Part shown: positions 16,889 to 41,396 of the stretch, piece by piece | Numbering within the stretch: the stretch's first letter is position 1 | Layout of the letters: each line of letters opens with the position of its first letter | Assembly: GCA_025602905.1 (NCBI GenBank) | Contig: JAHLKI010000023.1 | Location: 248,001 to 312,000, forward strand | From: Phlyctochytrium arcticum | Taxonomy: Eukaryota > Chytridiomycota > Chytridiomycetes > Chytridiales > Chytridiaceae | Length of the DNA stretch: 64,000 bases | Direction: 5' to 3' | Position numbers and translations under genes: made by a program | Notes under the pieces: generated by a model | Seen by the model: only the letters and a program-made list of their open reading frames with translations | The model's database searches: none | What the model was told of the DNA's origin: nothing

Positions 16889-16988
16889 TGTGATAGTGCA
16901 CGAATAGTATACTAAAACTAACACCCCAATTTTAGTAATTACTAAAATTGGGGTGTTAGTTTTAGTATACTATTCGTGCACTATCACA
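16889..16988. repeat. Left terminal 100-bp perfect palindrome
   Basis: The 50-base left arm and its reverse complement meet at 16938/16939 (GTAA|TTAC). Arm layout: 28 bases TGTGATAGTGCACGAATAGT..ACTAAA, a 9-base block ACTAACACC, then CCAATTTTAGTAA. The outer 28 and inner 13 bases are identical to the right palindrome; the 9-base block is not. It could fold as a hairpin telomere or cruciform. Confidence 0.95.
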
Positions 16989-17248
16989 GGGCCGTTTTCC
17001 AACTATGTCCCAACTATGGGCCAACTATGAAGCCCGCTATGTGACCCTACTATAAGGCCGTTTCTCCACTATGTGACCTTATGATAAGGCCGCCTCCATC
17101 AAACATCGAGCCATCTTACACATTATGAATCATCCCTCTCCATATTTCATCGAGTGGTGCCGCTTGTTACGATAAAGGGACTTCCATCACTATCCTATCA
17201 GGATCATCAGGATCATCAGGATCATCGATATTACCCCCCGATACTGCT

Positions 17249-17467
17249 ATGTCTCTATGTGCTGCTTACGTAAGCATCCTGTCTCATCTCCTCTCATTCT
17301 ATCAAAAAAAGCAACGACCCCCCCGGTTGATCGTTGCTCTCCTTTCAGAGATACCAAATTTATCTTTTAGTGACCTTGGTGAAGACACTGTATCGAGCCA
17401 TCGACATCTGAATCGTTGTGAATCGCTTATGGAGCGGGCCCTTTACGGGACTTTCAACCCTTTATAA
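17249..17467 (+). CDS. Small open frame inside the left terminal repeat (uncertain)
   Basis: A 72-residue frame beginning MSLCAAYVS. Its last ~48 residues, including LIVALLSEIPNLSFSDLGED, are nearly the same as a frame in the opposite terminal repeat at 40890-41129. The reading frame is kept in both copies despite some base changes, and the end ESLMERALYGTF is shared. The conservation could simply follow from repeat identity. No domain recognised. It points inward from the left end. Confidence 0.3.
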   Translation: MSLCAAYVSILSHLLSFYQKKQRPPRLIVALLSEIPNLSFSDLGEDTVSSHRHLNRCESLMERALYGTFNPL

Positions 17468-18103
17468 AACATTCTACGTTATCGATATCGATATCATCCA
17501 GAAATGTTTCATTACAAGTCCCGGGACTTTTTCCGATAATAGTCCCCAGACTTCCAATCCTACATTCTGGATGTTATCGATATAACGCAATATCGATAAT
17601 CTAGGATCATCAGGATTATCGATATCTAGGGACTCCGTCCCGTCGAGGGCACTAGTGCCCGAGAACCCCCCGATACTGCTATGTCCCTCTCTGTGTGTCT
17701 TTTTTTAATCTCCCCCGATTCTTCAACTTCTCACTAATTAAAATGTTTGATTCATGCCCTTTTTGACTACTTTCCTTTTCTGGGCTCTGGGTCGGCTTTT
17801 TTCCACATTATTTCTGGTTTTTTCTCTTTCTTTTTCAATTTCTCCCTTGTTTTTTCTCTCTTAAATTGTACGAATTATTAAAAAACCAGAGACCCAGAGA
17901 CCCATTTTTTATCGAGCGCTTTCTTTTTCCGTTTCTATACCGTCTCACTCTATCATCACCTTGAACTAAATGTTTTCTACCACAATTTAGAGAAATCATC
18001 GAGACACTCTTGCACCCTTTTCTGGGAAACCCATTCTACTCACTTTTCCTTTCTATACCCCTCTTCATCAATCCCCGATTCACTCACTTTTTCCATTCTA
18101 TCC
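17468..18103. other. Inner terminal repeat and spacer before the primase-helicase gene
   Basis: Holds ATCGAT/GATATC-rich repeated motifs (17470-17640), the inner part of the terminal repeat to about 17760, one arm of a 140-bp inverted repeat (17777-17916), and pyrimidine-rich sequence downstream of the minus-strand gene that ends at 18104. No gene seen. Confidence 0.5.
17777..17916. repeat. Left arm of a 140-bp inverted repeat flanking the primase-helicase gene
   Basis: Reverse complement of 20801-20940 with scattered differences; both arms are 140 bases. Shared blocks include AAAAAATGGGTCTCTGGGTC and AAAAAGCCGACCCAGAG. The two arms enclose only the minus-strand gene at 18104-20611. Confidence 0.85.
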
Positions 18104-20611
18104 CTACACACTTTCGAGCCGTCTTTGCACCTTGCTATAACCATAATAATCCTCTTGTGCTTTTCTTTTTTCGAACGTGTTTGTAATCTCCTCTACATCA
18201 TCTCGTTGGATTTGGTATTGTGGTGGTGTAATCTCTTCACGTACAATTTCTAAATCCATGATGAATGTAGATTTTGAACGATTGGCTGGATCATATTTGT
18301 CACAACACTTATCTTTCCCTCCTCTCGCTTTGTTCTTGCACGATTTACAAATGTGTTCTCGAACAACTGTATATCCTAATGTTTTGAATGTGGAATAATC
18401 GTTATCGTCCCATTTGGCCTTCTCGTTTGGATGATTAAATCGCATAAAGTTTTGGTATGATTTTTTCACATCATCAAGTGAACATCGAATACGAGGCTCG
18501 CAAACAGTTTTTCGTACATAGAAACATGCACCTTTCGATTTATTTTCCTCTGGACTCGCAGTTAGAAATCTGTGTAGCCAATTCGTGGCCACACGTGCCA
18601 ATTCACGATTGTCAATATAGTAGGTTGGGGAAAAACTCCAAAAATCCCGACCCTTGTTCTTATTAATAACGTTAAAGTAGGCTGTTAAACATTTCAAGAT
18701 GAGGTCGGGCAGTTCGTTTTCAATAATGGTGGCCTCCAATGAGTTATCCTTTTCTTGAATGAAATGCTCGAATAGGAAGATTGGGATACGTCTTTCAATT
18801 GCCCCTTTCTTATCCTCATATCGAGGGAAAATGTTCCCTGCCATTATTAAAGGTACTCGAAATTTTCCAGACATGGCTTTCTTGTGTTTTCCTGGGATAT
18901 TGAGATGGTCGCCGTCAATCATATTTTGCAACATAGTCACATCTAGGACTTCCTGCATTTTATGAGGCATGTCGGGTACTACGAGCAAATCTTTATCATG
19001 CAAATTCTCTAATCCAAATACCTTTTCTTGATTTGCAGATATTACACCAATTTGGTCTGGTGGATGCATTGCTTTAACACAATTGAGAACCGTTGATTTC
19101 CCTGTATTAGATTCTCCTAGTAACAACAATGCAACATTTAATCTGTCATGTTGCCCGACTTTGAAAAATGTTCTTCCAACTAAGGCAAGTAAAATTTCGA
19201 ATATCTCTGAAATCTCCTCTACACTCTTGTCTTGTAATTGATAAAGAACCACACTGTCAAAAACAGGTGTGTGCATTTTCCCAGTGAACAATTGATCAAT
19301 ATAATATCGGGCTACTTTCTTCTTTGTAAACTTATGTTCATAAGCATAGAATTTTTGTGTGTCCAATTCGAGAATTCCATTCTGAAAAGCCAAGATATTC
19401 ATATCGACCTTCATAAAAGGAAGTTCTTCATCGTCATACACTTTCAAATGGTTAAGAATATCGTTAAATCGCTTCGGACTTGATTTAAACATCCGATTCT
19501 TTCGGAGAACATGATTGATAAATTCCTCGTACTTCATATAGCGAACATAAGCGCAAGGTTTTTTTTCCACTGGCTTATATATATAATCCTCTTTCTTCAG
19601 CAACTGATATTTTTGAGAGTATTTCCATAATTCGCTCATCAGAAGGAAATGAGGAGTATCCGCCTTTTTTTGTTCTTGTTCTTCCTGGGCTGGGTCGGTT
19701 ATCAATCGAGTAAAATGTTTATCTCCTGTACTTGGGCGACAAACAAATAAAAGGTTGTTACCATGGCGAACTAGAAAGGGGTGATTTTTGTGTGAAACGT
19801 GCTTTCGACTACAAATTGAACAATCAAAGTCTTCTGTTTCCTTCAATATGATTCTCTGGTATTTATCGATGGATACCATCTGGTGATTTTTGAAATATGT
19901 CGTTTTCTTGAACAATGTAAAGTCGTCACTATTGACGACATCATTTACAAAAAGTTCGGTAAATGACTTTACTTGTTGATTTTTATGGTCTGTGAATGAT
20001 TTCTTTCCGCATGTTTTTAGAATGTTTTCCTTGATCCAGTTTGGAAGTTCGGTAATTACAACGTCTTGTATCTTTTCGTTTGGTTGCCATACATACTGAC
20101 CAATTTCAGAAATACTCGGAGGGCACATCACAAATCCACCGTCTCCGCGAATATCGATCGCGCACAACTGTTCATCTATCGACATAACATTTGAATTTGT
20201 GGTTTTCACAACTCCTGCCAGTGTTTCGTCCCAAACGAAATAATAATGACGCCCCCCACTTGGCGTTTGACAACGAAGAGTTTGTGGTTCTCCACCATTT
20301 GCTTCACATAGTACATTCCAATCATTGAGTCCGGAAGTTTTTCTGTACATTTCCGAACTCACCGCTTGATTAGCAACCTTGTTATCAACATCGACTACAA
20401 TCACACCGGATTTAGAACCAGTAAGAACGCCAATATTTGCCTTTGCGCCATATATTTTTCCTACAGATTTGTTCCAATCTTTGACCGAGTAGTTTTTCCA
20501 ATCACCAAGTGGATGTTTTTTTGAGATATGCGCCGGGATTGGAACCAAACCTTTCTTTAATAGTTTGGTTTTTGCAGACTTCAATTCTTCGAGGGTTAGA
20601 CCGAAATTCAT
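18104..20611 (-). CDS. PrimPol (archaeo-eukaryotic primase)-SF3 helicase replication protein (835 aa)
   Basis: Likely the main replication enzyme of the element. Residues ~20-180 form a bifunctional primase-polymerase domain: GLVPIPAHISKKHPLGDWK at the start, catalytic VVDVDNK at ~72-78, SGGRHYYF at ~118-125 and IDIRGDGGFVMCPPS. A Cys-rich insert follows (CSICSRKH, ~264-271). The D5-type N-terminal region (NGILELDTQKFYAY, ~411) precedes a superfamily 3 helicase with Walker A GESNTGKST (~499-507), Walker B LLVVPDM (~542-548) and motif C VPLIMAGN (~586-593). The C-terminus has another Cys cluster (CKSCKNKARGGKDKCC). This architecture is known from virophages and Polinton-like viruses, where it replaces PolB. 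The gene is enclosed by inverted repeats at 17777 and 20801. Confidence 0.93.
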   Translation of the reverse strand: MNFGLTLEELKSAKTKLLKKGLVPIPAHISKKHPLGDWKNYSVKDWNKSVGKIYGAKANIGVLTGSKSGVIVVDVDNKVANQAVSSEMYRKTSGLNDWNVLCEANGGEPQTLRCQTPSGGRHYYFVWDETLAGVVKTTNSNVMSIDEQLCAIDIRGDGGFVMCPPSISEIGQYVWQPNEKIQDVVITELPNWIKENILKTCGKKSFTDHKNQQVKSFTELFVNDVVNSDDFTLFKKTTYFKNHQMVSIDKYQRIILKETEDFDCSICSRKHVSHKNHPFLVRHGNNLLFVCRPSTGDKHFTRLITDPAQEEQEQKKADTPHFLLMSELWKYSQKYQLLKKEDYIYKPVEKKPCAYVRYMKYEEFINHVLRKNRMFKSSPKRFNDILNHLKVYDDEELPFMKVDMNILAFQNGILELDTQKFYAYEHKFTKKKVARYYIDQLFTGKMHTPVFDSVVLYQLQDKSVEEISEIFEILLALVGRTFFKVGQHDRLNVALLLLGESNTGKSTVLNCVKAMHPPDQIGVISANQEKVFGLENLHDKDLLVVPDMPHKMQEVLDVTMLQNMIDGDHLNIPGKHKKAMSGKFRVPLIMAGNIFPRYEDKKGAIERRIPIFLFEHFIQEKDNSLEATIIENELPDLILKCLTAYFNVINKNKGRDFWSFSPTYYIDNRELARVATNWLHRFLTASPEENKSKGACFYVRKTVCEPRIRCSLDDVKKSYQNFMRFNHPNEKAKWDDNDYSTFKTLGYTVVREHICKSCKNKARGGKDKCCDKYDPANRSKSTFIMDLEIVREEITPPQYQIQRDDVEEITNTFEKRKAQEDYYGYSKVQRRLESV

Positions 20612-20999
20612 TTTGTTACTTGCAAGGACAACAAATGTATGAAAGTATACACTTGTTTGTCCTTATATAGCAATATAATGCATCTTTTCAAACCCAGTAT
20701 TACCCATTCTTTCACTCGATCTCTTTTGTTTTCATCTATCTTTTTTTAAAACATCTGTGCATATGCTGGTAATTTACATCGAAAAAGGAATATTTCAACA
20801 CTCGATAAAAAATGGGTCTCTGGGTCTCTGGTTTTTTAAAGATTCGTACAATTTAAAGGAATAAAACAAGAAAGAAAATGAATAAGAAAGAGGAAAAAAT
20901 AGAAATAATGTCGAAAAAAGCCGACCCAGAGTACCAGAAAGTTCTGCACACAAAAAAGACATTTAAAGAAATATGTCGTTCTTTAGATAAACCCAAAGA
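20612..20999. promoter_or_regulatory. Divergent promoter region with inverted-repeat arm
   Basis: Lies between the divergently transcribed primase-helicase gene and the Cys-rich gene at 21000. An AGTATAC box at about 20645-20651 sits ~35 bases upstream of the primase start; the same box occurs near other starts and in the terminal palindromes. The right 140-bp inverted-repeat arm is at 20801-20940. Confidence 0.5.
20801..20940. repeat. Right arm of the 140-bp inverted repeat flanking the primase-helicase gene
   Basis: Partner of 17777-17916. The best conserved core is CTCGATAAAAAATGGGTCTC at its start and GCCGACCCAGAG near its end. It lies upstream of both divergent genes, so one copy is promoter-proximal and the other 3' of the primase gene. 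Confidence 0.85.
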
Positions 21000-21608
21000 A
21001 TGACACATTATCGGGCAATTTTTGAGTCGGAACTGGTTAAAAATTCGGTTGCGGATACGTTGGAAGAGGCGATTCTAGAATGGACAGTAAAAGGTACATT
21101 CTACCGAGACAATCTTTGTATTTGTACGCACAAGATAAAGGAGAATTGCGAAGTTCAATCTGTAATAAATGGAAAGACATTAATTATTGGCAATTGTTGC
21201 ATTACACGTTTCTTTCCCGAACACGAGCGTGAGAAAATGTGTGAAGATTTGCGTAAAAGAAAGGCTATTACCAAGAAATGCGAAATATGTAAAAAGAGAC
21301 ATTATAAACAGTATGCTTTGAATGAGGAACTATGCGATAGATGTCATTTGGATGTACTAAAATGTGTCAAATGTGGCGATTATTTCCCATGTAGTGATGT
21401 CAAAGAGCGAACATGGAAAACTATGTGTTTGATCCACTGGGCGGAAAGTAAAAATGCGGTATTAAAGAGAGTTCCGAAAAAATATGATCCAAAGGAAGCG
21501 CGCCGAAAGACCCGCGATTGTGCTCGCGATGGATGTAATGCACGAATATCGAAGAAAAAGTCAGATTGGATAACATTGTGCGACAAACATTACAAGTATC
21601 GTTTTTAA
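21000..21608 (+). CDS. Cys-rich zinc-binding protein (202 aa)
   Basis: No named family is certain. The middle reads LCICTHKIKENCEV followed by IIGNCCITRFF, a pattern seen in small viral and phage zinc-binding proteins with a CxC...GNCC core. Then come CEICKKRH, CDRCHLD and CVKCGDYFP, giving several Cys pairs spaced for zinc ribbons, and a basic tail with CARDGCNARISKKKS. It may bind nucleic acid. It is divergent from the primase gene and its stop codon abuts the stop of the next minus-strand gene at 21609. No membrane segment or signal peptide. Confidence 0.7.
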   Translation: MTHYRAIFESELVKNSVADTLEEAILEWTVKGTFYRDNLCICTHKIKENCEVQSVINGKTLIIGNCCITRFFPEHEREKMCEDLRKRKAITKKCEICKKRHYKQYALNEELCDRCHLDVLKCVKCGDYFPCSDVKERTWKTMCLIHWAESKNAVLKRVPKKYDPKEARRKTRDCARDGCNARISKKKSDWITLCDKHYKYRF

Positions 21609-21824
21609 TCAATCATCTAATTCGAGTTTGAATGTTTCGAGTTTGGAATCTTTAAAAGTATCGTAACATGGATAACAACGAACACGATTCCTCATGTATG
21701 GAATTATAATTTGACACGTTACATTCTCACTCGAATAATCTTTACAAACACGACATCCGTCAGGGACAATAGGAGCGCCATTTTCAGCAAACTTGACTTG
21801 ATATGTTTTTGAATAGATAGGCAT
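21609..21824 (-). CDS. 71-aa zinc-ribbon-like protein, copy 1
   Basis: Starts MPIYSKTYQVKFAENGAPIV, has a CRVCKDYSSENVTC pair and a second RVRCYPCYD pair, then an acidic Leu-rich end (KLETFKLELDD). Two CxxC pairs suggest one zinc site. A near-identical copy lies at 22839-23054, with about nine residue differences in 71. Most of the changes leave the Cys pairs intact, which argues that both are functional. The 3' end abuts the neighbouring convergent gene with no gap. Function unknown. Confidence 0.7.
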   Translation of the reverse strand: MPIYSKTYQVKFAENGAPIVPDGCRVCKDYSSENVTCQIIIPYMRNRVRCYPCYDTFKDSKLETFKLELDD

Positions 21825-21951
21825 GAACGTTTGGGTCTGTATAATAATAATAGATTAAATTATCGTTTCCTTTAATACGCAAAATGATACATACCGTTTT
21901 CGATCCTTTCAGAGAAAGTTACGAACTTTTTCGCCACTCCCTTTCAAACAA

Positions 21952-22106
21952 TGTAGAAAAAACATGAAGAGAATAATCCTAGCAATTCTAGCCGGTATTT
22001 GAGAGATATTTTTAGAAACTGAAACGAAAAACGTTTTTTATAAAAGTAAAATGAAAATGAGAATGAGAGAGGCAAAAAAAAGGGCGAAAACGGGCTAGAA
22101 GTGTGA
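21952..22106 (+). repeat. Dispersed cargo-flanking repeat, copy A (partial)
   Basis: Matches the 3' two-thirds of copies at 36514, 39672 and 40466 in the same orientation. Conserved blocks: GTAGAAAAAACATGAAGAGA, CTAGCAATTCTAGCCGGTAT, AAAAACGTTTTTTATAAAAG, GAGAATGAGAGAGGCAAAAA and GGGCTAGAAGTG. The 5' block GATCATAGACTAGACATAGC found in the other copies is missing here. Confidence 0.85.
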
Positions 22107-22226
22107 GGAATCAATAGTTAAATAATACGTCACATTTTGCGAAAAATCGTTGCAAAATGTGTCACCATTTTTGCTATATAAAGGTTTGAAAATTATCATG
22201 TTGTACATAGAGCGCAACTGTTCAGA

Positions 22227-22850
22227 ATGACTACAATCTACAAACACGACGGTATAATGAGGACAGAAGTCAAACATGGGCTTGGAATAGTTGCTACGGA
22301 GAATATCGCTAAAAACACCATTCTAAATGTTGACGTCTTGATTGTAGGAGATCTTTATAAATGTATGGAGCAATTGGCTGAAGATGAACAATTATATACG
22401 GAACTTTGTCCCCGGGAACATATTGCGGAAAGTGAGATCCAACTTTTTGAAAAAGTTCTTTCGAATTCGTTCGGAAACAACGAATTAATTCTAGGTCATC
22501 ACCTATCTTTTTATAATCATTCGTGTAATTCAAATGCAGTATACGGTATACTGCATCTCACAGCAAAGGACGATAGCCTCACAGCAAAGGACGATAGCCT
22601 CAAATTGGGAATCGTGTTTTCTTTGCGAGATATTCCTGCGAATGAAGAAATCTGTCTATTTTATGGAGAGCGATTTGGACACGATGAGAATTTGATGGCG
22701 GGATCTTTTCATAAGTTTACTTGTAATTGCTCATTAACAAATATGAAGATTCGAGGTGAAAAATCCAAACGATTATTAGAAAAAGGACGGAGTTTAGCGT
22801 TAGAAAATCAGCAGAAAATACTGAAACTACTCTATGAATCAATCATCTAA
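22227..22850 (+). CDS. SET-domain protein (putative lysine methyltransferase, 207 aa)
   Basis: Resembles stand-alone SET-domain enzymes that transfer methyl groups from S-adenosylmethionine to lysine. Visible motifs in order: HGLGIVATENIAKNTIL (~17-33, N-terminal SET strand), FYNHSCNSNA (~95-104, the NHSC cofactor signature), RDIPANEEICLFYGERF (~134-150, catalytic Tyr region) and FTCNCS (~164-169, post-SET-like Cys). An in-frame direct duplication repeats LTAKDDS twice around residues 111-124, probably in a surface loop. The gene sits between two copies of a 71-aa gene and just after repeat copy A. Its last 12 bases overlap the end of the minus-strand gene at 22839. Substrate (host histone or viral protein) unknown. 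Confidence 0.82.
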   Translation: MTTIYKHDGIMRTEVKHGLGIVATENIAKNTILNVDVLIVGDLYKCMEQLAEDEQLYTELCPREHIAESEIQLFEKVLSNSFGNNELILGHHLSFYNHSCNSNAVYGILHLTAKDDSLTAKDDSLKLGIVFSLRDIPANEEICLFYGERFGHDENLMAGSFHKFTCNCSLTNMKIRGEKSKRLLEKGRSLALENQQKILKLLYESII

Positions 22851-23054
22851 TTCAAGTTTGAATGTTTCAAGTTTTGAATCTTTAAAATTATCGTAACATG
22901 TATAACAACGGACACGAGTTCTCATGTATGGAATTATAATTTGACACGTTACATTCTCCCTCGAATAATCTTTACAAACACGACATCCGTCAGGGACGAT
23001 AGGAGCGCCATTTTCATTAAACTTGACTTGATACGGTGTTGAATAGATAGGCAT
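22839..23054 (-). CDS. 71-aa zinc-ribbon-like protein, copy 2
   Basis: Paralogue of the protein at 21609-21824, with the same CRVCKDYS and RVRCYTCYD pairs. The DNA duplicate covers essentially the coding region, including the shared TCAATCATCTAA at the 3' end. That segment also supplies the last codons and stop of the SET gene here, whereas at copy 1 it lies just past the neighbour's stop. Upstream sequence differs from copy 1 and contains a GTATAC box (~23062), so the two copies are probably expressed differently. Confidence 0.7.
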   Translation of the reverse strand: MPIYSTPYQVKFNENGAPIVPDGCRVCKDYSRENVTCQIIIPYMRTRVRCYTCYDNFKDSKLETFKLELDD

Positions 23055-23224
23055 TTTGTACGGTATACTTTTAAAATAGTATAAGAATGTTTAAATATAG
23101 CATCAACCGCAGAGTCACTTGTACAGGATCTGTCGGCGGGTAAATAGGAGAAAGTGGGAACAATTTATCCGGTGTATTTTTCCAAAAAGCATCATTCTCT
23201 TCATCGGTTTCTTACATCATATTA

Positions 23225-23247
23225 CATCGATAACATTTTTATCGATG
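23225..23247. promoter_or_regulatory. ATCGAT hairpin upstream of the recombinase-like gene
   Basis: CATCGATAA and TTATCGATG form a perfect 9-bp stem around a 5-base loop, about 40 bases upstream of the ATG at 23285. An AGTATACT box follows at about 23274-23281. ATCGAT is also enriched in the inner terminal repeats, so a shared binding factor is possible. Confidence 0.5.
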
Positions 23248-23284: not shown

Positions 23285-24313
23285 ATGGTTATCTTAGTTG
23301 GCAACATGACTCTCACACAATTTCTTAACAAAGAAGCAAAGTCATTCAAATCTGACTCCAAGAGAGTCTCACAGTACGAAGAAAAAGGAATCTTCAACAA
23401 AAATATATTTCTTGATATTGATGTAGTCAAAACTCGCATCCAAGAAGTGCATGGTGGAAATCTAGCAAAGAAATCTCTCGCTGACTATCTCGGCCTAGTA
23501 CGTCGTATATTGAATAAAGCCGGTTGTCAACACTGGGACATACAGGAGGAAGAATTCAAAAAACTTATTAAACGATACGATGTTTCCATTCACGAACTTC
23601 GCAACTCGACACCTCGATATAATGGTATTCCGCAACCCACGGACACCATAAATTATGAAAAGGTTGTGGAGAAGATGTTGGAAAAGTACGAATCGGTCGA
23701 ATACGTTTATGATAAACATGAACCGAGCCTTGAACAAATTGACGAATTACAAACTGTGATAATTGGGTTAGTGCCAGTTTTATTCTTCAATGTGCGAGCC
23801 AATTATATGACTTGGAAAAACTTCTCTCATAAGAACGTTTCTCATTTAAAGGATAACGTCCTCATAGCGGACAATTGCGGTAATGTTTCTATTCTTTGGA
23901 ATGAGCGGAAGCAGGACCGGATTAATTCTACTAAAAGAAAACGAGACGAATCGGTAGCAGAAGATGAAGTTATTGACACAAAATCATTCTCTCAAGCGAT
24001 GGGCAAAGTCCCGTATGATTCAATCAAAGGAGTAAACCCTGTTAAAATGGCGAGGATCTTGTCAAAATTCTTTTGGCGATTTCGAAAGAATTCTGAATAT
24101 ATTTTTGTTGATAAAGAGGGCAATCCGTTTAAGGAAGATTCGTTTCGTAAAAGAATAATTTCTGCAACGGGACATGGAATCGCAGAATTGAGAAGAGGAC
24201 AAATCACCTATATTCACAAGGAACCGTTGAATAATGAAACGCGTGAATACCTTTCATTACAAAATCATCATTCAAAGGAAGAGAACGAACTATATAATAG
24301 ACCCACTTTGTAA
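23285..24313 (+). CDS. Tyrosine-recombinase-like protein (342 aa)
   Basis: The N-terminal ~100 residues look like a helical core-binding domain (SLADYLGLVRRILNKAGC). In the C-terminal part, FFNVRANYMTW (Arg171) fits the first catalytic Arg. ELRRGQITYIH (Arg303/304), EYLSLQNHHSKEE (His328/329) and Tyr337 in ELYNRP fit the RxxH...H...Y end of tyrosine recombinases. The order and spacing (33 residues from Arg304 to Tyr337) are right for this family, but overall similarity is weak. Its role could be genome resolution at the terminal palindromes or a second integration route. It is divergent to the upstream 71-aa gene and convergent with the rve integrase. Confidence 0.65.
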   Translation: MVILVGNMTLTQFLNKEAKSFKSDSKRVSQYEEKGIFNKNIFLDIDVVKTRIQEVHGGNLAKKSLADYLGLVRRILNKAGCQHWDIQEEEFKKLIKRYDVSIHELRNSTPRYNGIPQPTDTINYEKVVEKMLEKYESVEYVYDKHEPSLEQIDELQTVIIGLVPVLFFNVRANYMTWKNFSHKNVSHLKDNVLIADNCGNVSILWNERKQDRINSTKRKRDESVAEDEVIDTKSFSQAMGKVPYDSIKGVNPVKMARILSKFFWRFRKNSEYIFVDKEGNPFKEDSFRKRIISATGHGIAELRRGQITYIHKEPLNNETREYLSLQNHHSKEENELYNRPTL

Positions 24314-27593: not shown

Positions 27594-27639
27594 GAATAAT
27601 TCGTATGTTTTACTTGTAAGTTTACAAAAAAAAATCACA

Positions 27640-27677
27640 GCACCCCCTGTGGGTGCGCTGAGGCGCAAGGCGCCTCA
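27640..27677 (-). terminator. Tandem GC-rich hairpins at the 3' end of the minor capsid gene
   Basis: Two adjacent perfect stems in AT-rich DNA: GCACCC-CCTGT-GGGTGC (27640-27656) and TGAGGCGC-AAG-GCGCCTCA (27659-27677). The stop codon of the minus-strand minor capsid gene (27675-27677) is inside the second stem. Mimiviruses and their virophages end transcripts at such hairpins, so a 3'-end signal is likely. Confidence 0.65.
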
Positions 27678-29461: not shown

Positions 29462-29511
29462 CTCTTCTTTTCTAGTAAGAAGAGATAATATTTTTCTGGT
29501 CATATATACAA

Positions 29512-34100: not shown

Positions 34101-36498
34101 TGTAATTTTGCAACAAAACAATCAGACATATTCCAATGGCAATATTACCTATACAGTACCGAATCTTGGCAGATATTGGACTTTACAATGTGATCTGTTG
34201 TATTCATCATATCGGCAAGACGAAGGCATCACTGTTTCTTGCGGAGGTTATATTGCTTCTTTTAGCGGGTATTTTCAATATACTCGTTTGTATACACCAG
34301 ATGGAACGTACAAAGAAGTCGCTGCATCTCTCCCTCGAGACGTTTTTGCAACGGTAAGAATGAAAGTCATCTACGACACGATTCAATTATATGTTAATAA
34401 TACTCTAATTACAACTTGGACAAACAATTCAACAAACATTCCTCCAGCCACCAATGTAACTATTTTAATTAATGGTCAATCCGGAGGATTTGCTGCTACG
34501 AAATTGTTGGATAATTTGTCACTTGTTCAAGACAGTAATGCTACGGAATCGATAAAGTTTTCTCCACTTAATGGAAAGGTAACTAGTCAAATTTCCACAC
34601 TAGATGATGGAAATTACGGGTCATCAATGATTCTTTCTGCTTCCACAACATCTAGCGGAATTTTGCAAGAATTGATGCGATTGGGAACAACTGGTGTTAC
34701 AGTAAATAAAAAATTATTTGCAGTAGATGATATTTATACGAAGACACTCAAAGTTGCAACAGAATCCTTCGTTTCCACATCAATTAGTGCGATCCCTTTG
34801 TCCAATTATACACCTTTATCGACATTCAACAGTCGAGTCGCTACAGTAGATAATCGCTTTTCACCGATCGAGTCGAGACAGGCTTTGTTAAAAGCATTGT
34901 CAAATAAAGATACGATCGACTTATCGAGTGGGGATGTTGTCAATATTCTCCCTATTTCAAAACTTGACACTAGTACGTTACAAACTCTTATTACTTCGGC
35001 AAATGCTAGTCAAATCAAAACAACATTAGGTCTGTCCCCATCTGCGACAAGTGGGACTATTGAGTATGCAAATATTCTAAATAAACCAACATTCGGGGCT
35101 CTTTCCTTAAAGAATAGTGTCGACTTGTCAACATCAGATTCAATAGGAAATCTCGACTTTGCGAGAATATCAAATACTCCAAGTTATGTATTGACGAGCA
35201 ATTTCGATTCTCGTATTACACCAATCGAGACAAAGTTGACTGGTTTCGACTCTTCGATAACGTCGAAACTTTTGACTCTTAATCTCGGAACAGGAAGTCA
35301 ACCGTCAGGTATCGTTATTAATGCTCCGTCATCGGCTGTGAATGGTAATGCAGTTATCAATATGAACAACGCCTCGTCCAGTTGCAATTGGGGTCTGTAT
35401 CATTCAGGTCAAAACGGAACCGCTGGCTTGCTGAATGGAAGTCTCGGCTTTTACAATTTTACGTTATCTTCTCATATTCTTCAATTACGACCTGAAGGCT
35501 CTGTTATCATTACGACAACCACTGATTCTGCAAGTGCAACAAGTGGTGCACTTACAGTTGCTGGAGGTGTTTCGATCGCAAAGAAGTTATATGTAGGGAA
35601 TGATCTAATTATAGGAGGAAGTTCGTTAAGCACAAACATCACTACAAATTCGTACCTTTACGTAAAGGGAAATTCCAATCCTTGGACCACAACATTGTCT
35701 ACACCGGGTCTCTTCATGGTTTATGACACTTCGCAAAATTTCGGGGTTATTCAATCCATAGTGAAGAGTACAAATATTTCTTATCCGTTACGGTTGGAAG
35801 CCTCCTATGTACATATTCCAGGTACAACCGATTCCACCGGGGTGGATTCAGGGGCGTTTCTAGTGAGTGGAGGAGCCTCTGTTGCTAAAAAATTGGTCAT
35901 AGGGACTATATTGGACACTGGTGTATCAGCAACATCACAACATACGATTCAAACGTCTTCAGCATCTGATGTTCTCAAAATTAAGAATCGTGCTAATAAC
36001 GGGTACGCTTCCATTCTGTTTGAATCGGGTTCAAACGTGCAAGCCTCTATCGGTGTTGGCGGAAGCACAGTTTCAAATCCGACTACAAATCGACTCTATT
36101 TAAAATCTCCATCGATCTATCTCGATGCTCAAGACATTTCATACCCGGGAGGTTTTCTTACTCGAACACTTGGAAAAACGGTATTCGATAATCTAACTGT
36201 ATCTGCCTCAAATAGTGTTAGTTTTACAACAGAACGAAGCGTTCAGATGTTCACGGGATGTGTAAGTGCATTTGGGACGACTACCCAACAAGGGATAACG
36301 TTTTTATGTAAAATCGATGGAGTAGTAGTTAAAACTTTTTACTTCTTCTTTAATCAAGCAGGTTTGCATATGCGTTTACCTTTTTCGTTTATCTGTACAG
36401 ATCTTAGTCCAGGTGTTCATGGGTTTCAAATAACCGCAGCAGGAAACGTTTCGATGGATATCAATTCCAGGATAGACTTATGCTTCATTGAATGGTAG
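31168..36498 (+). CDS. Giant trimeric-fibre/attachment protein (1776 aa)
   Basis: The largest viral gene. Residues ~70-560 contain many short repeats of the type DSPLDFSSGDNRMSLKYD and NPLYFDPFNSHKLSLSID. The PL...G.L.L pattern is like adenovirus fibre shafts (triple beta-spiral). A Gly-rich hydrophobic stretch follows at ~635-695 (GGLAGGLGGAIAGVISIFGG). After it come phage-like repeats (LDYSLLQNVPNL, LDYALLSNVPNL), a lectin-like beta-sandwich region (~960-1130), and two SGALTVAGGVSIAKKLYVG-type repeats known in viral fibres (~1450 and ~1570). The C-terminus (~1660-1776) is a compact beta domain, plausibly the receptor-binding knob. Role by analogy: spike or fibre for attachment. Confidence 0.8.
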   Translation: MSGINTRSSSGLRLLSDTNLESPFVSGTLTGFSSDSEITGFRKAQIDTISNQNGELEVNRIIAETPIETTVSDGVVDVSLKIDQNRLRVTDQNELTTADLGVDSPLDFSSGDNRMSLKYDDSCLYVNEEEKLSVVQRSPKVDSPLFINDDGEIELRYSNHLQNNEGGFEDGTFFEKGLELKIANPLYFDPFNSHKLSLSIDNSLEIDDGELKVVEKDYEFPLYRDDETVGIEIHHPLYLSQMGLSLNAIPPFGTTGEGALKLNLDEDTLEVKDDKLTAKSQDATKLLKGAGAISVYKDPLESLEGAIVKLDVDHENFQQTGNKLAFRSTAPGEIPYDSGLSSLRRSDAFVYNETFQQLKVDHVKLAPNFSPDNDEAVTSSYVDQLYQAGSGVDISAKVNSRREISIRTDASLSIDVNQNLSVNPSAFVNNQSIRVNSEGKLTSGLLFQAINNLGIRNNNEVFLDLHTQGNLEFDGSVLTDSRAFGNGLHENSSHEVSLDLTVEGALEMNASKTNIREVLSASNGVKRVGNSIQGAYVGGNGISISGSTISCTYEAPEPEAETPYIGGNGIAVTGKTISNTLSILPGTGILITGGPGGPYTVSSIDTFTQKKTAQDPTENKTSDTPQETFKSGSGSTIVSSGGLAGGLGGAIAGVISIFGGGAGLAGVASSAIGAVGGLSNAVLGGSLAGGFISIFGHERKQRKDGNDNGLYNGDGTATIEEGSNVIIATMPDVLGCDTTRLLFDTPPSCSYLGITGEYKTQAINLDMLRQYDNEIILPKIIDTTSDLLAPLLESTVLNTALIYDLEANLNNFQPKITLENKLDYSLLQNVPNLSGFATTSNIAANYVSNSALSTTLTGYVSSSSFASGMLSKQNTITSSSKLDYALLSNVPNLALKQDVITSSAKLPYSLISGTPDLAPYALTTSLTSGLATKQSTITNSLLLSGVDTVSSPLLTDTFTSVPTGALGGTATYDSTNKYVILQQNNQTYSNGNITYTVPNLGRYWTLQCDLLYSSYRQDEGITVSCGGYIASFSGYFQYTRLYTPDGTYKEVAASLPRDVFATVRMKVIYDTIQLYVNNTLITTWTNNSTNIPPATNVTILINGQSGGFAATKLLDNLSLVQDSNATESIKFSPLNGKVTSQISTLDDGNYGSSMILSASTTSSGILQELMRLGTTGVTVNKKLFAVDDIYTKTLKVATESFVSTSISAIPLSNYTPLSTFNSRVATVDNRFSPIESRQALLKALSNKDTIDLSSGDVVNILPISKLDTSTLQTLITSANASQIKTTLGLSPSATSGTIEYANILNKPTFGALSLKNSVDLSTSDSIGNLDFARISNTPSYVLTSNFDSRITPIETKLTGFDSSITSKLLTLNLGTGSQPSGIVINAPSSAVNGNAVINMNNASSSCNWGLYHSGQNGTAGLLNGSLGFYNFTLSSHILQLRPEGSVIITTTTDSASATSGALTVAGGVSIAKKLYVGNDLIIGGSSLSTNITTNSYLYVKGNSNPWTTTLSTPGLFMVYDTSQNFGVIQSIVKSTNISYPLRLEASYVHIPGTTDSTGVDSGAFLVSGGASVAKKLVIGTILDTGVSATSQHTIQTSSASDVLKIKNRANNGYASILFESGSNVQASIGVGGSTVSNPTTNRLYLKSPSIYLDAQDISYPGGFLTRTLGKTVFDNLTVSASNSVSFTTERSVQMFTGCVSAFGTTTQQGITFLCKIDGVVVKTFYFFFNQAGLHMRLPFSFICTDLSPGVHGFQITAAGNVSMDINSRIDLCFIEW

Positions 36499-36513
36499 GG
36501 TAAGCAGCCAGTA

Positions 36514-36758
36514 GAGAATCATAGACTAGACATAGCCATATCGATCTAGGATTTATTTGTCTCCAAACATGAAGAGAAGAGATATAGATTTTTTTTTAAT
36601 CTTGTAGAAAAAACATGAAGAGAGAAATTCTAGCAATTCTAGCCGGTATTTGAGAGATATTTTTAGAAACTGAAAAGAAAAACGTTTTTTAAAAAAGTAA
36701 AATGAAATTGAGAATGAGAGAGGCAAAAAAAGGGACGAAAAAGGGCTAGAAGTGTTAG
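36514..36758 (+). repeat. Dispersed cargo-flanking repeat, copy B
   Basis: Full-length copy of about 245 bases, starting GAATCATAGACTAGACATAG and ending GGGCTAGAAGTGTTAG. It lies between the fibre stop and the 3' end of the minus-strand gene at 36773, opening the cargo segment. Confidence 0.9.
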
Positions 36759-36772
36759 ATCCACGGTGAGAT

Positions 36773-37099
36773 TCATTCTGTTTCGATTTGCAGAGTTTCC
36801 AATGCGTTATTATTATCTGTTGCGATAATCAAAACGTGTTTACAAATCGCGATATAGCCACTGGAATAAAGGAATTCTCTGTAATTTTGACGATATTCTG
36901 GCAGTTTCAATCGTGAACAAATTGAGGCAATCTTTTGAAAAATAAATCGGTTTTCACTAGTACATTTCACATAGATAAGAACTTTCTCTTTATCGCTAAA
37001 TTGCATCTGTTCGCATAGTTGCGTAAACGTTTTCCAATTGGTACACGATTTTGTGAAATTAAGAACCGTATGTCCCTCAATAATTCGTTTTATTGGCAT
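36773..37099 (-). CDS. Unrecognised small protein (108 aa)
   Basis: MPIKRIIEGHTVLNFTKSC start; mixed alpha/beta composition with FIFQKIASICSRLKLPEY in the middle and CKHVLIIATDNNNALETL near the end. No motif recognised. It is the 3'-most gene of a minus-strand cargo run, and its stop is 15 bases from repeat copy B. About 540 bases of non-coding sequence lie upstream. Confidence 0.55.
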   Translation of the reverse strand: MPIKRIIEGHTVLNFTKSCTNWKTFTQLCEQMQFSDKEKVLIYVKCTSENRFIFQKIASICSRLKLPEYRQNYREFLYSSGYIAICKHVLIIATDNNNALETLQIETE

Positions 37100-37641
37100 A
37101 TTTTATTTCGTTGCTATATAATGATCAGTCCTAAACATTGACTTAAAACTGTTTTTCTGCGACTGGTCCACCTGGACTTGCTATTTTATAAAGATTGTGA
37201 CACATATAGAGCGCCTTGAAACGCATCTTCCTAACCATAAAGAAATATTTCAAGAGGGAGGGGCACCGCTCCTACTAATAATTCGGTGTCAAACCAAAAA
37301 AGAGCATTAAAGTACATGCTGTTTTTGAAATGCGTTAGAATGACCTATTTTAATTATGTGTGTGTTATTGAACAAGTCCTGAAATACTGACTTTAAACTG
37401 TTTCAAACTTTTTCAACTTATCTCTAGATAGATTTTGCCTTTCTTCTCTAGTTGGTACAGAGGTATATGGAATTCTGGATATAAGTAAAAATTCATATTT
37501 ATTTCAAGGAGCCATTTGACAGGCGACTTACAAAACAGAAATAATGTCAAAAGGAAACGGTCCTCTTCCTACTAAGAATGCGACGGATCAAAAAGAACAA
37601 TATATATTCCTTGTTGTTTTTGAAAATGCCGGCTTACACTA
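37100..37641. other. Non-coding stretch with a degraded internal duplication
   Basis: Sequence around 37125-37330 resembles 37370-37620 (for example ACTGACTTTAAACTGTTT against TTGACTTAAAACTGTTT, and CTCCTACTAATAATTCGG against CTTCCTACTAAGAATGCG). It looks like an old tandem duplication that no longer codes. No open frame with support. Confidence 0.4.
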
Positions 37642-37938
37642 TTATTCCTCATCCTTCTCATCCTCATCATCCTCATCATCTTCTTTAAAGCAGTGTTTGT
37701 ATTTTGACTTCAAATGTGTAACATTTGCGAGATTTTCTAGGTATGTAAAAGTGCTTTCTCGAAACTTGACCAAATCTTTAATGGCATTTAAAAACTCTTT
37801 TTTCTTTTCAAAATCTGGGATCTTGGCTATAATTTTAACCACTCTACTTAGAATATCACAAATGTAATATCTATCTTCAATTGCCAACCATTCCTCATTA
37901 CTGCCGCTGTCTGTCACTGGTGGTTCCATTAGTTTCAT
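37642..37938 (-). CDS. Acidic-tailed helical protein, paralogue 1 (98 aa)
   Basis: A helical body (YYICDILSRVVKIIAKIPDF, then KKKEFLNAIKDLVKF and TYLENLANVTHLKSKYKHCF) and a tail of almost only Asp and Glu (EDDEDDEDEKDEE). It aligns with the neighbouring 86-residue protein at 38029-38289 over the KKKEFLN...YLEN...KYKxxF core, so the pair arose by duplication. Acidic tails of this kind occur in histone- or DNA-mimicking proteins, but no function can be assigned. Confidence 0.55.
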   Translation of the reverse strand: MKLMEPPVTDSGSNEEWLAIEDRYYICDILSRVVKIIAKIPDFEKKKEFLNAIKDLVKFRESTFTYLENLANVTHLKSKYKHCFKEDDEDDEDEKDEE

Positions 37939-38028
37939 TCTGTCTTTTAATTTTAGTATGCAGAATAAATGGTATTCTTTAAACGCACAGATTATAGAAA
38001 ACGAATAATATGAAAAATTGCGTGTTTT

Positions 38029-38289
38029 CTAATCTTCCTCGTCAACCATGACCCGCTTGTACTTTTTTTTAAAAAAACCTTTGTACTTTTCCTCTATCTC
38101 GGCTATGATAATCGAGTTTTCGAGATATTTTATTGTTTCCTCATCTAGATCGGGGATCTTTTTTTTTAGATCATTCAGAAATTCTCTTTTTTTATCTAAT
38201 GCGATAATTCTTTCGAAAATCTCAACAATACGTTGATGAATTTCATCTGATGGATTATCGCTGCTGCTATATCGATCAAATAGTACCAT
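38029..38289 (-). CDS. Acidic helical protein, paralogue 2 (86 aa)
   Basis: Shares with the 37642 gene the order IVEIFERIIA, DKKREFLNDLKKKI, TIKYLENSI and EEKYKGFFKKKYKR, then a short acidic end (VDEED). Its upstream 45 bases (38292-38336) are almost identical to those upstream of the gene at 38337-38690, suggesting a common promoter. Function unknown. Confidence 0.55.
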   Translation of the reverse strand: MVLFDRYSSSDNPSDEIHQRIVEIFERIIALDKKREFLNDLKKKIPDLDEETIKYLENSIIIAEIEEKYKGFFKKKYKRVMVDEED

Positions 38290-38291
38290 CC

Positions 38292-38336
38292 TTTACTTAT
38301 TCTCAAGAATAAAGAGTTTTCTTGAAAATGCGTTTA
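38292..38336 (-). promoter_or_regulatory. Duplicated 45-bp upstream element, copy 1
   Basis: CTTTACTTATTCTCAAGAAT and AAAGAGTTTTCTTGAAAATG (plus-strand reading) recur at 38692-38737 with a single change. Each copy begins right at the start codon of a minus-strand gene, so it is most simply a shared promoter/leader. It includes a CTCAAG...CTTGA dyad. Confidence 0.65.
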
Positions 38337-38690
38337 TCACGTCTCTTTCCTCAGACGATCCATTTCATTTTGCACTCTTTCCTTCCAGTTTGCATGCCAT
38401 GGATAATCCCTGGTATCAAAATATTTATTCTGCAAGTCGATACATGGCAGTTCTTTTCTGCAAACTTTACAACCAGGAAGTTCACGCTCTATCGGTTTAA
38501 CACTTTCCAAGTATTCCAAGTCATGCACATAATCTCTTGGGAAGCGATGCGGTAATTCAAATTCGCTTGGTTGATACTCTTTTACACATTTTTTCATACA
38601 GAAGGATCTGTCACATCCAAAACAGCATTCAGAATCACCTTCTAGGAACGTCTCGCCACATCCGTCACAAATTTCAATATCTAACCCCAT
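38337..38690 (-). CDS. Zinc-binding Cys-rich protein, RING/PHD-like spacing (117 aa)
   Basis: The N-terminus reads IEICDGCGETF then ECCFGCDRSFCMKKC: seven to eight Cys in C-x2-C...C-x2-C...C-x3-C spacing, enough for two zinc ions. A second pair, CKVCRKELPC, is near residue 80. The overall look is like a degenerate RING, PHD or FYVE-type finger, and I cannot decide among them. If RING-like it might act with the nearby F-box-like protein in ubiquitin transfer, which is speculation. Confidence 0.6.
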   Translation of the reverse strand: MGLDIEICDGCGETFLEGDSECCFGCDRSFCMKKCVKEYQPSEFELPHRFPRDYVHDLEYLESVKPIERELPGCKVCRKELPCIDLQNKYFDTRDYPWHANWKERVQNEMDRLRKET

Positions 38691-38691
38691 C

Positions 38692-38737
38692 TTTACTTAT
38701 TCTCAAGTATAAAGAGTTTTCTTGAAAATGCGTTTGA
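38692..38737 (-). promoter_or_regulatory. Duplicated 45-bp upstream element, copy 2
   Basis: Second copy of the element at 38292-38336, immediately before the start codon at 38690. The near identity over 45 bases, but not in the coding regions that follow, points to a recently copied promoter. Confidence 0.65.
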
Positions 38738-38744
38738 ATTACAA

Positions 38745-39179
38745 TTAGAGAAAATTCTCTTGTTCTTGCAATTGCCCGTCTAGAAATCCGAAAATGCTTT
38801 TAATGTTAGCCATTGACAGAGGTTTCGCATAAAATTCAGTTGCACCAGCGTCTATCGCTGCGTTTCCGAGATGAGGACTAGAAGAAAAAGCGATGATTTT
38901 TATCGGAGTTTCGTTTATATCCGTTTCAAATTTTCGAATAAAGGATATTAGTCTAAGCCCATCTGGAGCGCTATCTTTCTTTCCCCCCTCATGTTGGTTT
39001 ATGAAATTTAGATCTGTGAAAATCGTCTCAATATCTTCAAAGTTTGCATAAATAAGATCCATCGCAGTATCGATATTAAGACATATTACAATTGACAGTT
39101 GTTTGTAGATGTTTGTAATCATTCTTTTAACGATTTTTGCTCCGAGACTGTTATCATCTACTATGATCACAAAACGCAT
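38745..39179 (-). CDS. CheY-like response-regulator receiver domain (144 aa)
   Basis: A single receiver domain of two-component phosphorelays. All signature residues are present in order: acidic pair in RFVIIVDDN (Asp8, Asp9), phospho-acceptor in ETIFTDLNF (Asp56), Ser/Thr switch in IKIIAFSSSP (Ser99-100), and invariant Lys in DAGATEFYAKPL (Lys119). The alternating beta/alpha pattern and length fit a complete domain with no output module. Starting at 39179 places MRFVIIVDDN at the N-terminus, as in CheY; the longer frame from 39248 would overlap the next gene. It could intercept phosphate from fungal hybrid histidine kinases via Ypd1-like transfer proteins. Confidence 0.85.
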   Translation of the reverse strand: MRFVIIVDDNSLGAKIVKRMITNIYKQLSIVICLNIDTAMDLIYANFEDIETIFTDLNFINQHEGGKKDSAPDGLRLISFIRKFETDINETPIKIIAFSSSPHLGNAAIDAGATEFYAKPLSMANIKSIFGFLDGQLQEQENFL

Positions 39180-39220
39180 TAACTTTAATGTATCGCAACA
39201 AAAGAAACGATATTTGCGAT

Positions 39221-39625
39221 TCAGGAGGTACGGTTTACAAGACCCCATTTAACAGGCTGATAATCTTTTAATCGTCCGTCATACCTCCATTTCATACGGA
39301 TTTCTTTATCATCCCCTACCCACTCCTTTGTTATTATCCACTTATTCCTTATCCACGTGTAAGATGGATATTCATGTCTGCCACGATATTTTATACGAAA
39401 AGCGAACTCCTTATTTGTAGAACTTAATTTTATCGTTGCTGAATCCCCTTTATTACCTTTAACCGGATGAGAAATCGTTGCCCATTTCTCATTTTTTAAC
39501 CTCCTGCAAACCTCACGCACGGGATTAATATTATACATTCTTGCAACTGTATAATAGTCATCTGTATCCAAATAATCTAAAATACGCAATCCGACATCGA
39601 GAGGTAGATCGTCAAAGAGATTCAT
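39221..39625 (-). CDS. F-box-like protein (134 aa)
   Basis: The N-terminus MNLFDDLPLDVGLRILDYLDTDDYYTVARM fits the F-box pattern: LP x D V x L x I L x Y L followed by a helix. F-box proteins dock substrates to SCF ubiquitin ligases through Skp1. The rest (FRIKYRGRHEYPSYTW, MKWRYDGRLKDY) is Trp/Tyr-rich beta sequence without a named repeat and could be the substrate-binding part. F-box genes are known in giant viruses and poxviruses; here the short length is unusual. It begins just inside repeat copy C. Confidence 0.6.
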   Translation of the reverse strand: MNLFDDLPLDVGLRILDYLDTDDYYTVARMYNINPVREVCRRLKNEKWATISHPVKGNKGDSATIKLSSTNKEFAFRIKYRGRHEYPSYTWIRNKWIITKEWVGDDKEIRMKWRYDGRLKDYQPVKWGLVNRTS

Positions 39626-39671
39626 TTTCAATTGTTAGATCAATTTTTATAACAACGATACAACGCGTTCG

Positions 39672-39910
39672 GAGAGGATCATAGACTAGACATAGCCTTT
39701 TTGATCTAGGTTAATTTTGTTTCGAAACATGGAGATAAGAGATTCGTTTTTTAATTTATTTTGTAGTAAAAAACATGAAGAGAGAATTTCTAGCAATTCT
39801 AGCCGGTATTTTGGAGATAATTTTACAAGGAGAGAAGAAAAACGTTTTTTATAAAAGTGAAATGAAATTGAGAATGAGAGAGGCAAAAAAAAGGCTGAAA
39901 AAGGGCTAGG
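39672..39910 (+). repeat. Dispersed cargo-flanking repeat, copy C
   Basis: About 240 bases with the same blocks as copies B and D (GATCATAGACTAGACATAGC at the start, CTAGCAATTCTAGCCGGTAT, GAGAATGAGAGAGGC, GGGCTAGG at the end). It separates the F-box gene start from the HNH gene stop at 39915. Confidence 0.9.
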
Positions 39911-39914
39911 TTTT

Positions 39915-40388
39915 CTAAGAATTGTCATTCACAGAGTTTAATAGGTACAAACCTCCATTGTTGTTTGCTTCTTCTGCAGCCCGGTTATATGCAAATGCTG
40001 CAGCCTCCTTTGTTGTAAAGTAACCAAGATGCCTCTGTTTCTTGTTGATACATATGTTGGCTTGCCACTTGTTTTTTCCTTTGTGCCAGGAGACACCCTT
40101 GTATCCAGAAGTGTTATTAGTTGGATGTGATTTCCACTGATTATTTTGCTGAAGGGTTACAATCTCTAGGTTGCTAATTTGATTATCAGATTTATCGAAA
40201 TTGATATGATTGACATGTTCTGTAGGAGCAAGTTTTCGACCAAGATGTTTTTCCATTAAAAGACGGTGTATGTAATACCGTTGACCATCTACAAGAAGCC
40301 GCCTGTATCCAAGTGTTTCTGTATATCCACTGTTGCCATCTCTCCTTGTGACGGTGCCTTTAAGTAAATTGTATGCGAGTTCTTCCAT
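39915..40388 (-). CDS. HNH endonuclease with AP2-type DNA-binding domain (157 aa)
   Basis: Residues ~38-80 match the HNH_3 fold: YIHRLLMEKHLGRKLAPTEH, then VNHINFDKSDNQISNLEIVT with the HxN...N/H core. Residues ~92-145 form an AP2-like domain: SGYKGVSWHKGKNKWQANI and LGYFTTKEAAAFAYNRAAEE. This HNH-AP2 pairing is typical of free-standing homing endonucleases in phages and algal viruses. The gene is the only content between repeat copies C and D, as expected for a separately mobile cassette. All key residues are present, so it may be active. Confidence 0.88.
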   Translation of the reverse strand: MEELAYNLLKGTVTRRDGNSGYTETLGYRRLLVDGQRYYIHRLLMEKHLGRKLAPTEHVNHINFDKSDNQISNLEIVTLQQNNQWKSHPTNNTSGYKGVSWHKGKNKWQANICINKKQRHLGYFTTKEAAAFAYNRAAEEANNNGGLYLLNSVNDNS

Positions 40389-40465
40389 CAGTAAAGTTAT
40401 TTGATTAGGCTATATGCAATGCTTAAATAACAAAGTTTCTTCCACATCGGGACATTCAAAAATGA

Positions 40466-40713
40466 CAGAGGATCATAGACTAGACATAGCCTTTTCGATC
40501 TAGGTTTTGTTTGTCTTGAAACATGGAGAAAGAGATTCTTTTTTTTTTTTACTAATGTAGAAAAAAACATGAAGAGAGAAATTCTAGCAATTCTAGCCGG
40601 TATTTGAGAGATAATTTTAGAAAGAGAAAAGAAAAACGTTTTTTAAAAAAGTAAAATGAAATTGAGAATGAAAGAGGCAAAAAAGAGGGCGAAAAAGGGC
40701 TAGAAGTGTTAGA
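40466..40713 (+). repeat. Dispersed cargo-flanking repeat, copy D
   Basis: About 248 bases, beginning GATCATAGACTAGACATAGC and ending GGGCTAGAAGTGTTAG. It abuts the inner edge of the right terminal inverted repeat at about 40722. Confidence 0.9.
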
Positions 40714-40889
40714 TGCAATCGGGGACATGAATCAAACGTTTTTATTAGTGAGAAGTTGAAGAATCGGGGGAGATTCAAAAAAGACACACAGAGGGAATAG
40801 CAATATAAGGGGGCGCTATCGATACTCCTGATGATCCAGATGATCCTACAATATCGATATTGCGCAATATCGATATTACGTAGAATGTT

Positions 40890-41129
40890 TTATAAAGGTT
40901 TGAAAGTCCCGTAAAGGGCCCGCTCCATAAGCGATTCACAACGATTCAGATGTCGATGGCTTGATACAGTGTCTTCACCAAGGTCACTAAAAGATAAATT
41001 TGGTATCTCTGAAAGGAGAGCAGCGATCAACCGGGGGGTCGTTGCTTTTTTGGATAGAATGTGAGGAGATGAGACACGATGCTTACGTAAGCAGCCTGGA
41101 AGTCCCGTAACCGTAACAAGCGGCACCAC
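40890..41129 (-). CDS. Small open frame inside the right terminal repeat (uncertain)
   Basis: A 79-residue frame that shares its last ~48 residues (LIAALLSEIPNLSFSDLGED and onward) with the left-repeat frame at 17249-17467, but starts differently (MVPLVTVTGLPGCLRKHR). It points inward. No domain recognised; it may just reflect repeat identity. Confidence 0.3.
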   Translation of the reverse strand: MVPLVTVTGLPGCLRKHRVSSPHILSKKATTPRLIAALLSEIPNLSFSDLGEDTVSSHRHLNRCESLMERALYGTFKPL

Positions 41130-41296
41130 TCGATGAAATATGGAGAGGGATGATTCATGATGTGTAAGATGGCTCGATGTTTGATGGAGGCGGCCTTATA
41201 GTAAGGTCACATAGTGGAGAAGTGGCCTTATAGTAAGGTCACATAGCGGGCTTCATAGTTGCCGCATAGTTGGGGCATAGTTGACAAACGGCTCCT

Positions 41297-41396
41297 TGTG
41301 ATAGTGCACGAATAGTATACTAAACGAACGCAGCCAATTTTAGTAATTACTAAAATTGGCTGCGTTCGTTTAGTATACTATTCGTGCACTATCACA
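41297..41396. repeat. Right terminal 100-bp perfect palindrome
   Basis: Symmetric about 41346/41347. The arm is the same as on the left, except that the 9-base block reads CGAACGCAG instead of ACTAACACC. Both halves of this palindrome carry the changed block, so symmetry is exact. Confidence 0.95.

Follow-up and report, generated by a model that had tools for sequence, protein, structure and literature searches.

How does a polinton-like virus (PLV) that carries a PrimPol and no protein-primed polymerase complete the ends of its genome? We know of no answer. The question is raised by a locus in the chytrid fungus Phlyctochytrium arcticum, a stretch of 64,000 nucleotides (contig JAHLKI010000023.1, positions 248,001 to 312,000), here called the window. 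At positions 16889–41396 of the window (24,508 bp) the chromosome holds a complete-looking PLV provirus, and both its ends are perfect palindromes. We think it probable that this provirus was recently inserted, and that its free genome was a linear molecule ending in hairpins, replicated by hairpin transfer before integration. A sequence-only reading of the window had recognized the element correctly; it had not noticed that the ends are palindromic, nor that the genome contains many relatives.

Boundaries and ends of the provirus

The provirus is framed by an exact 5-bp target site duplication, TTACC (16884–16888 and 41397–41401). Its G + C content is 38%, compared with 49% in the flank. The duplication, the inverted termini and the lower G + C content had all been noticed by the sequence-only reading, which proposed an integrated, uninterrupted PLV in a fungal chromosome; each of them was borne out, and the viral genes are open. 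From the features expected of PLVs, the element has inverted terminal repeats, a short target duplication, a size inside 14–40 kb, a PrimPol-SF3 (PolB or a primase-helicase being expected), an rve integrase with a chromodomain (rve or tyrosine recombinase) and an A32-type packaging ATPase. The fold of the capsid protein, chosen beforehand as the check that could overturn the assignment, was examined, and a double jelly-roll is present.

The left terminal palindrome, TGTGATAGTGCA...TGCACTATCACA, occupies 16889–16988 and the right one 41297–41396. Each is 100 bp long, with 50 of 50 arm pairs matching, and has the edges TG...CA. As single-stranded DNA the left palindrome folds at −53.9 kcal/mol, and the fold z scores were −21.2 on the left and −22.0 on the right. 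The terminal sequence is thus able to fold fully on itself, as is asked of a hairpin telomere. The outer and central parts are alike in the two palindromes, and 8 arm positions differ. At all 8 of these (of 50 pairs) both sides of the pair were changed, at none only one side, a result reached by 2 of 500 shuffles. Both palindromes are wholly symmetrical and so carry no information on the orientation of their centre. Inward of them lie the terminal inverted repeats, at 16989–17760 on the left, where there are also subterminal CCAACTATG-type repeats, and at 40723–41296 on the right.

The element had been called live or very recent; the second description agrees with the exact duplication and the undamaged palindromes at both ends. 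The nearest copy in the genome, C17:4304-28126, points the same way, with a capsid gene 99.0% identical to that of the window (dS 0.031), as does a ratio of nonsynonymous to synonymous substitution rates (dN/dS) of 0.115–0.147 for the capsid gene in six pairs between the window copy (contig C23), C17 and two C4 copies. The full dN/dS comparison took in 12 of 13 genes, the major capsid protein (MCP) copy with an internal stop (L077) being left out, and dS was saturated in many of the distant pairs.

Relatives and palindromic ends across the genome

In the 31.5-Mb genome the capsid protein matched at 62 places; in some cases several places are pieces of a single gene, and 26 had no interruption across 95% or more of the query. 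The ATPase matched at 49 places and the PrimPol at 23. The capsid copies represent three or more lineages, among which two types of end occur, and some copies carry stops or truncations. This adds P. arcticum as a fungus in which the capsid gene is present dozens of times. Domains of fungal-specific transcription factors, present at 11 places in the genome, are in keeping with the host.

The copy C17:4304-28126, so close in its capsid gene, has a different PrimPol (38% identity over the N-terminal part), while for the window PrimPol there are pieces of 97–98% identity at C17:63082-65584, and one piece contains a stop. Because the two modules have different nearest relatives, they seem to have been exchanged between co-resident viruses. 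A chimeric assembly had been named as a possible undoing of the block; the pattern suggests a mosaic instead.

We read 45 ends in the P. arcticum genome. Nine were chosen by motif search; the others were found by DNA similarity to the terminal region or around capsid genes, or were the two of the window provirus. The 45 ends reduced to 23 distinct terminal palindromes of 52 to 113 nt, with no arm mismatch in 17, one in four and a disrupted structure in two. Among the 21 with at most one mismatch, the arm edit distance between types was 1 to 30 (median 15.5). In 36 of the 40 short end loci there was a palindrome with no more than a single mismatch; L023 and L063 had none, and those of L020 and L022 were disrupted. 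A pair of the outer motifs within 113 nt occurred at 38 places in the genome (31 + 7), compared with 0 for a reversed control pattern. Chance palindromes were considered and rejected.

A second lineage, whose capsid protein is about 46% identical, has arms of another sequence on the same plan, and the outer edge, TG-5 nt-GTGCA, is common to both lineages. Five of the 23 types, all of 60 nt, could be aligned: 7 of their 30 pairs were changed on both sides and none on one side, which none of 500 shuffles reached. The common outer motif, with its TG/CA edges, is also what one would expect if the palindromes were just a double integrase binding site, with selection for protein binding maintaining their symmetry and no hairpin ever forming. 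We hold this to be unlikely, since such selection leaves unexplained the near-zero mismatch in the long and variable middle parts of the arms, the mirrored substitutions, the length differences and the occurrence of both centre-base orientations (described below).

Exact 5-bp duplications lay directly outside the palindromes in 10 of the 12 end pairs checked, and were absent at C4:900741-925880 and C5:1119671-1128805. One of the 10 positive pairs spans two contigs, C37 and C17, and was paired by hand. As the duplications abut the palindromes, the complete palindrome is part of the DNA that integrates. The two palindromic ends of the hand-made pair, C37:236002 (left) and C17:1427 (right), have the common flank TACAG, which suggests that the contigs are adjacent and that the assembly may have broken inside an element.

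A third PLV lineage in the same assembly served as negative control. Its element at C25:398331-414235 (30% capsid identity) has inverted repeats of 0.63 kb with 84% identity and no terminal palindrome, the longest arms being 4 and 5, compared with 52 and 50 at the ends of the window provirus. In host tiles (n = 126) the longest palindrome arm was at most 9. That the C25 element has none argues against the palindromes being a habit of the assembly. The C25 ends are Polinton-like: they start with AGTAG, and a 6-bp duplication, CGCGGG, was seen by eye. In the stretches inspected for MCP lineages of 20–32% identity, of which C25 alone had its true ends located, a terminal-type palindrome was found only for C10 (26-nt arms). 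C6 had one AT-rich inverted repeat with 18-nt arms, not counted as a terminal palindrome.

Missed adapters in long-read sequencing are a known source of perfect palindromes, and the damaged copies in the genome would suit a dead relic. Nevertheless, the fixed outer motifs, the position of the palindromes exactly inside the 5-bp duplications in 10 of 12 end pairs, the open viral genes of the window and the palindrome-free PLV lineage in the same assembly make it very improbable that we are dealing with a relic or an artefact, with palindromes from chimeric long reads or chromosomal gene conversion.

Proposed copying and resolution of the ends

In the second lineage, palindromes of the 61- and 63-nt types leave a single base at the centre unpaired. 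In the host-to-element direction, this base was A in four and T in four of eight undamaged ends, with the arms otherwise identical, and the ratio was 2:2 within each arm type. A ninth end was damaged at the centre. Both orientations would be expected if a terminal hairpin were inverted when it is replicated, as in flip/flop hairpins.

The element at C40:7173-32115 is an inverted head-to-head dimer with mirror symmetry: in 8 of 8 pairs the coordinates add up to 39287, the end palindromes are identical, 78 of 78 end bases are mirror-symmetric, and the duplication is CCCTG. Such a dimer fits the snap-back product that hairpin-primed copying might yield. Mirrored gene pairs also lie at C10:5429/20830, C18:112855/132079 and C1:1325439/1342512. 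A unit of 8.5 kb, C32:295777-304336, ends in palindromes of this kind too and is flanked by a duplication, CTGAC, without mismatch; none of the matches listed for capsid, ATPase, PrimPol and YR-like (tyrosine recombinase-like) protein fell there. This unit is possibly a satellite of these viruses.

According to the mechanism that we propose, each end of the linear free genome would fold into a hairpin and serve as a replication terminus. The PrimPol-SF3 would replicate the viral DNA. Copying round the hairpin would write one arm onto the other, so that the arms stay identical while their sequence drifts, and an unpaired base at the tip would flip its orientation. The ends would then be opened to full-length duplex palindromes with TG...CA edges, and the rve-chromodomain integrase would join their CA 3′ ends to the host DNA at cuts staggered by 5 bp. 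In its SF3-PrimPol and its A32 ATPase the element is similar to large DNA viruses with hairpin ends, so that such ends are plausible on mechanistic grounds. The mirrored arm changes and the inverted centres in integrated copies would be a fossil record of end copying in the free genome, and the question of how PLVs replicate their ends would become testable in a chytrid.

Candidates for resolving the hairpins are the integrase, a putative tyrosine recombinase and a host nuclease. The gene for the second, the YR-like gene, is convergent to the rve integrase gene in both lineages (window 23285-24313; L036 5686-7185) and is a candidate resolver in both, judged by its position and by motifs recognized by eye. 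It also invites a different explanation, in which a telomere resolvase acts on the palindromes, as in phage N15: in an intermediate that is circular or concatemeric, the YR-like protein would cut the palindrome at its centre and refold it to give closed hairpins. Besides the position of the gene next to the integrase, a precedent speaks for this, as a passage of PMC13236599 reports a telomere resolvase and a telRL-like palindrome in phaeoviruses. On the other hand, the N15 palindrome is internal on the phage map, while here the palindromes are the outermost provirus DNA; relatives of the YR-like gene were found at 14 places in the genome, compared with 62 for the capsid gene; and neither the window nor the second-lineage protein had profile similarity to the N15/phiKO2 protelomerase (hhalign probability ~0.1%, thin alignments). 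We take a telomere resolvase to be a possible but rather unlikely origin of the palindromes.

A bolder form of the hairpin mechanism gives the rve integrase a double duty. The TG/CA site is symmetrical at both edges of the palindrome; the integrase would nick the inner edge to resolve the hairpin during replication and would use the outer edge for integration, and these elements would form a clade of capsid-encoding PLVs with inverting hairpin telomeres. This is a tentative proposal, and we doubt it more than we believe it. If it is true, hairpin ends arose or were kept in the broad lineage of hairpin-ended giant viruses and poxviruses, the inverted dimers of C40 would be defective forms, and capsid-less 8.5-kb units such as C32 satellite forms.

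Several points weigh against hairpin transfer. A palindrome in a chromosome is no proof of a hairpin in the virion, and the element is known here from integrated sequence alone. Nine of the 45 ends came from a pattern search that already demanded both outer motifs. The flip/flop pattern rests on eight ends of the second lineage, in which independent A/T changes may have occurred, and the C37/C17 pair, the only other asymmetric centre seen at two ends, does not differ in orientation between them. In the middle part of C40, three capsid fragments (19467-20682) lack mirror counterparts. No hairpin-resolving enzyme was identified: the window YR-like protein had no support in profile comparisons (hhalign gave 0.1% against its second-lineage counterpart), its AlphaFold2 model reached a predicted local distance difference test score (pLDDT) of only 36, and a YR motif pattern, written after inspecting the sequences, fits the second-lineage protein and fails the window protein.

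Gene content and comparison with known systems

The Pfam scan covered 18 of the 21 window open reading frames (ORFs) of at least 100 aa. From left to right, the minus strand encodes the PrimPol-SF3 helicase (18104–20611, 835 aa), which is D5-like and matches the PHROG DNA primase (3.5e-37). On the plus strand follow a cysteine-rich ORF with no Pfam match (21000–21608, 202 aa), a SET-domain protein (22227–22850, 207 aa, 3.3e-11) and the putative tyrosine recombinase (23285–24313, 342 aa), assigned by motifs seen by eye and gene position only. The next four genes are on the minus strand: the rve integrase with its C-terminal chromodomain (24328–25689, 453 aa, 29% identical to the second-lineage integrase), the MCP with the double jelly-roll (25764–27014, 416 aa), an ORF of 203 aa between the capsid genes with no match above the cut-off (27057–27668), and a candidate minor, penton-like capsid protein (27675–28400, 241 aa). 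The latter had no family match in the domain scan; it is a conserved neighbour gene, 58% identical to its second-lineage homologue. Sequence searches of PDB with the MCP and YR-like proteins gave no meaningful match.

The A32-type packaging ATPase (28443–29153, plus strand, 236 aa; Pox_A32, 1e-7) is followed by an ORF of 122 aa with no assigned family (29150–29518, minus strand) and one of 534 aa (29512–31116, plus strand), with a similarly placed 509-aa ORF in the second lineage. A fibre-like protein of 1776 aa (31168–36498, plus strand) has a homologue matching Av_adeno_fibre (6.3e-6). The right part encodes, all on the minus strand, a response-regulator receiver domain protein (38745–39248, 167 aa, 4.4e-8), an F-box-like protein (39221–39631, 136 aa, 4.3e-4, below the curated cut-off) and an HNH endonuclease with an AP2-like domain (39915–40388, 157 aa, the AP2 match being below the curated cut-off). 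For this cargo at 38745–40388 and the SET gene at 22227–22850, a role in host signalling or chromatin is a guess from the domains. The window also has repeats of 237, 218 and 45 nt (21607–23054, 36513–40703 and 38291–38735). Several of their copies lie directly 3′ of cargo-gene stop codons, a gene-plus-3′-repeat layout that recalls cassettes; the repeats may represent common 3′ ends or sites of recombination.

Scans of IMG/VR returned no relative, whether made with the MCP, an MCP alignment, the second-lineage YR protein or the integrase, or with a strict pattern for terminal palindromes. Full-text literature searches, whose scope excluded most subscription journals and preprints, turned up no PLV recognized as having palindromic or hairpin ends. 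The novelty of the palindromic ends is thus that they were not found elsewhere, rather than proven, and chytrid PLVs themselves were already known. The earlier statement that fungal examples are few is fair, but chytrid PLVs are already represented in print and in GenBank. Bellas & Sommaruga 2021 (PMC7805220) describe a PLV integrated in Spizellomyces punctatus and a Spizellomyces group of PLVs, and report rve or YR integrases, inverted repeats and, for three of their fungal or oomycete elements, 5–7 bp duplications. The window element resembles this group in its chytrid host and integrated state, and its MCP shares 68% identity with a protein of S. punctatus. Neither 'palindrome' nor 'hairpin' is used in the main text of that paper. 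It gives chitinase for 52% of the S. punctatus group; none was among the Pfam matches of the scanned window ORFs. MCP matches were found in Spizellomyces, Powellomyces, Gaertneriomyces and other contigs, 25 proteins including P. arcticum's own, and the hexon of Powellomyces chytrid fungus MELD virus 5 (GenBank Third Party Annotation) is 66% identical to the window MCP.

With Polintons/Mavericks the element shares the double jelly-roll capsid, the A32 ATPase, the rve integrase and inverted repeats. Unlike them, it has a PrimPol-SF3 in place of a protein-primed PolB, a duplication of 5 bp in place of 6 bp, and palindromic ends with TG...CA edges in place of plain repeats.

Hairpin ends of poxviruses, African swine fever virus (ASFV) and phycodnaviruses are named in a passage of PMC12085832. 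The window element resembles poxviruses, ASFV, Paramecium bursaria chlorella virus 1 (PBCV-1) and parvoviruses in its potential for terminal hairpins, with a possible flip/flop in the second lineage; the proposed mechanism would work like the flip/flop hairpin ends of the first three, or like hairpin transfer in parvoviruses. It differs from the hairpin-ended viruses in its size of 24.5 kb, in integrating and in having complete palindromes at the provirus ends. A D5-like primase-helicase and an A32 ATPase are common to the hairpin-ended large DNA viruses and the window element.
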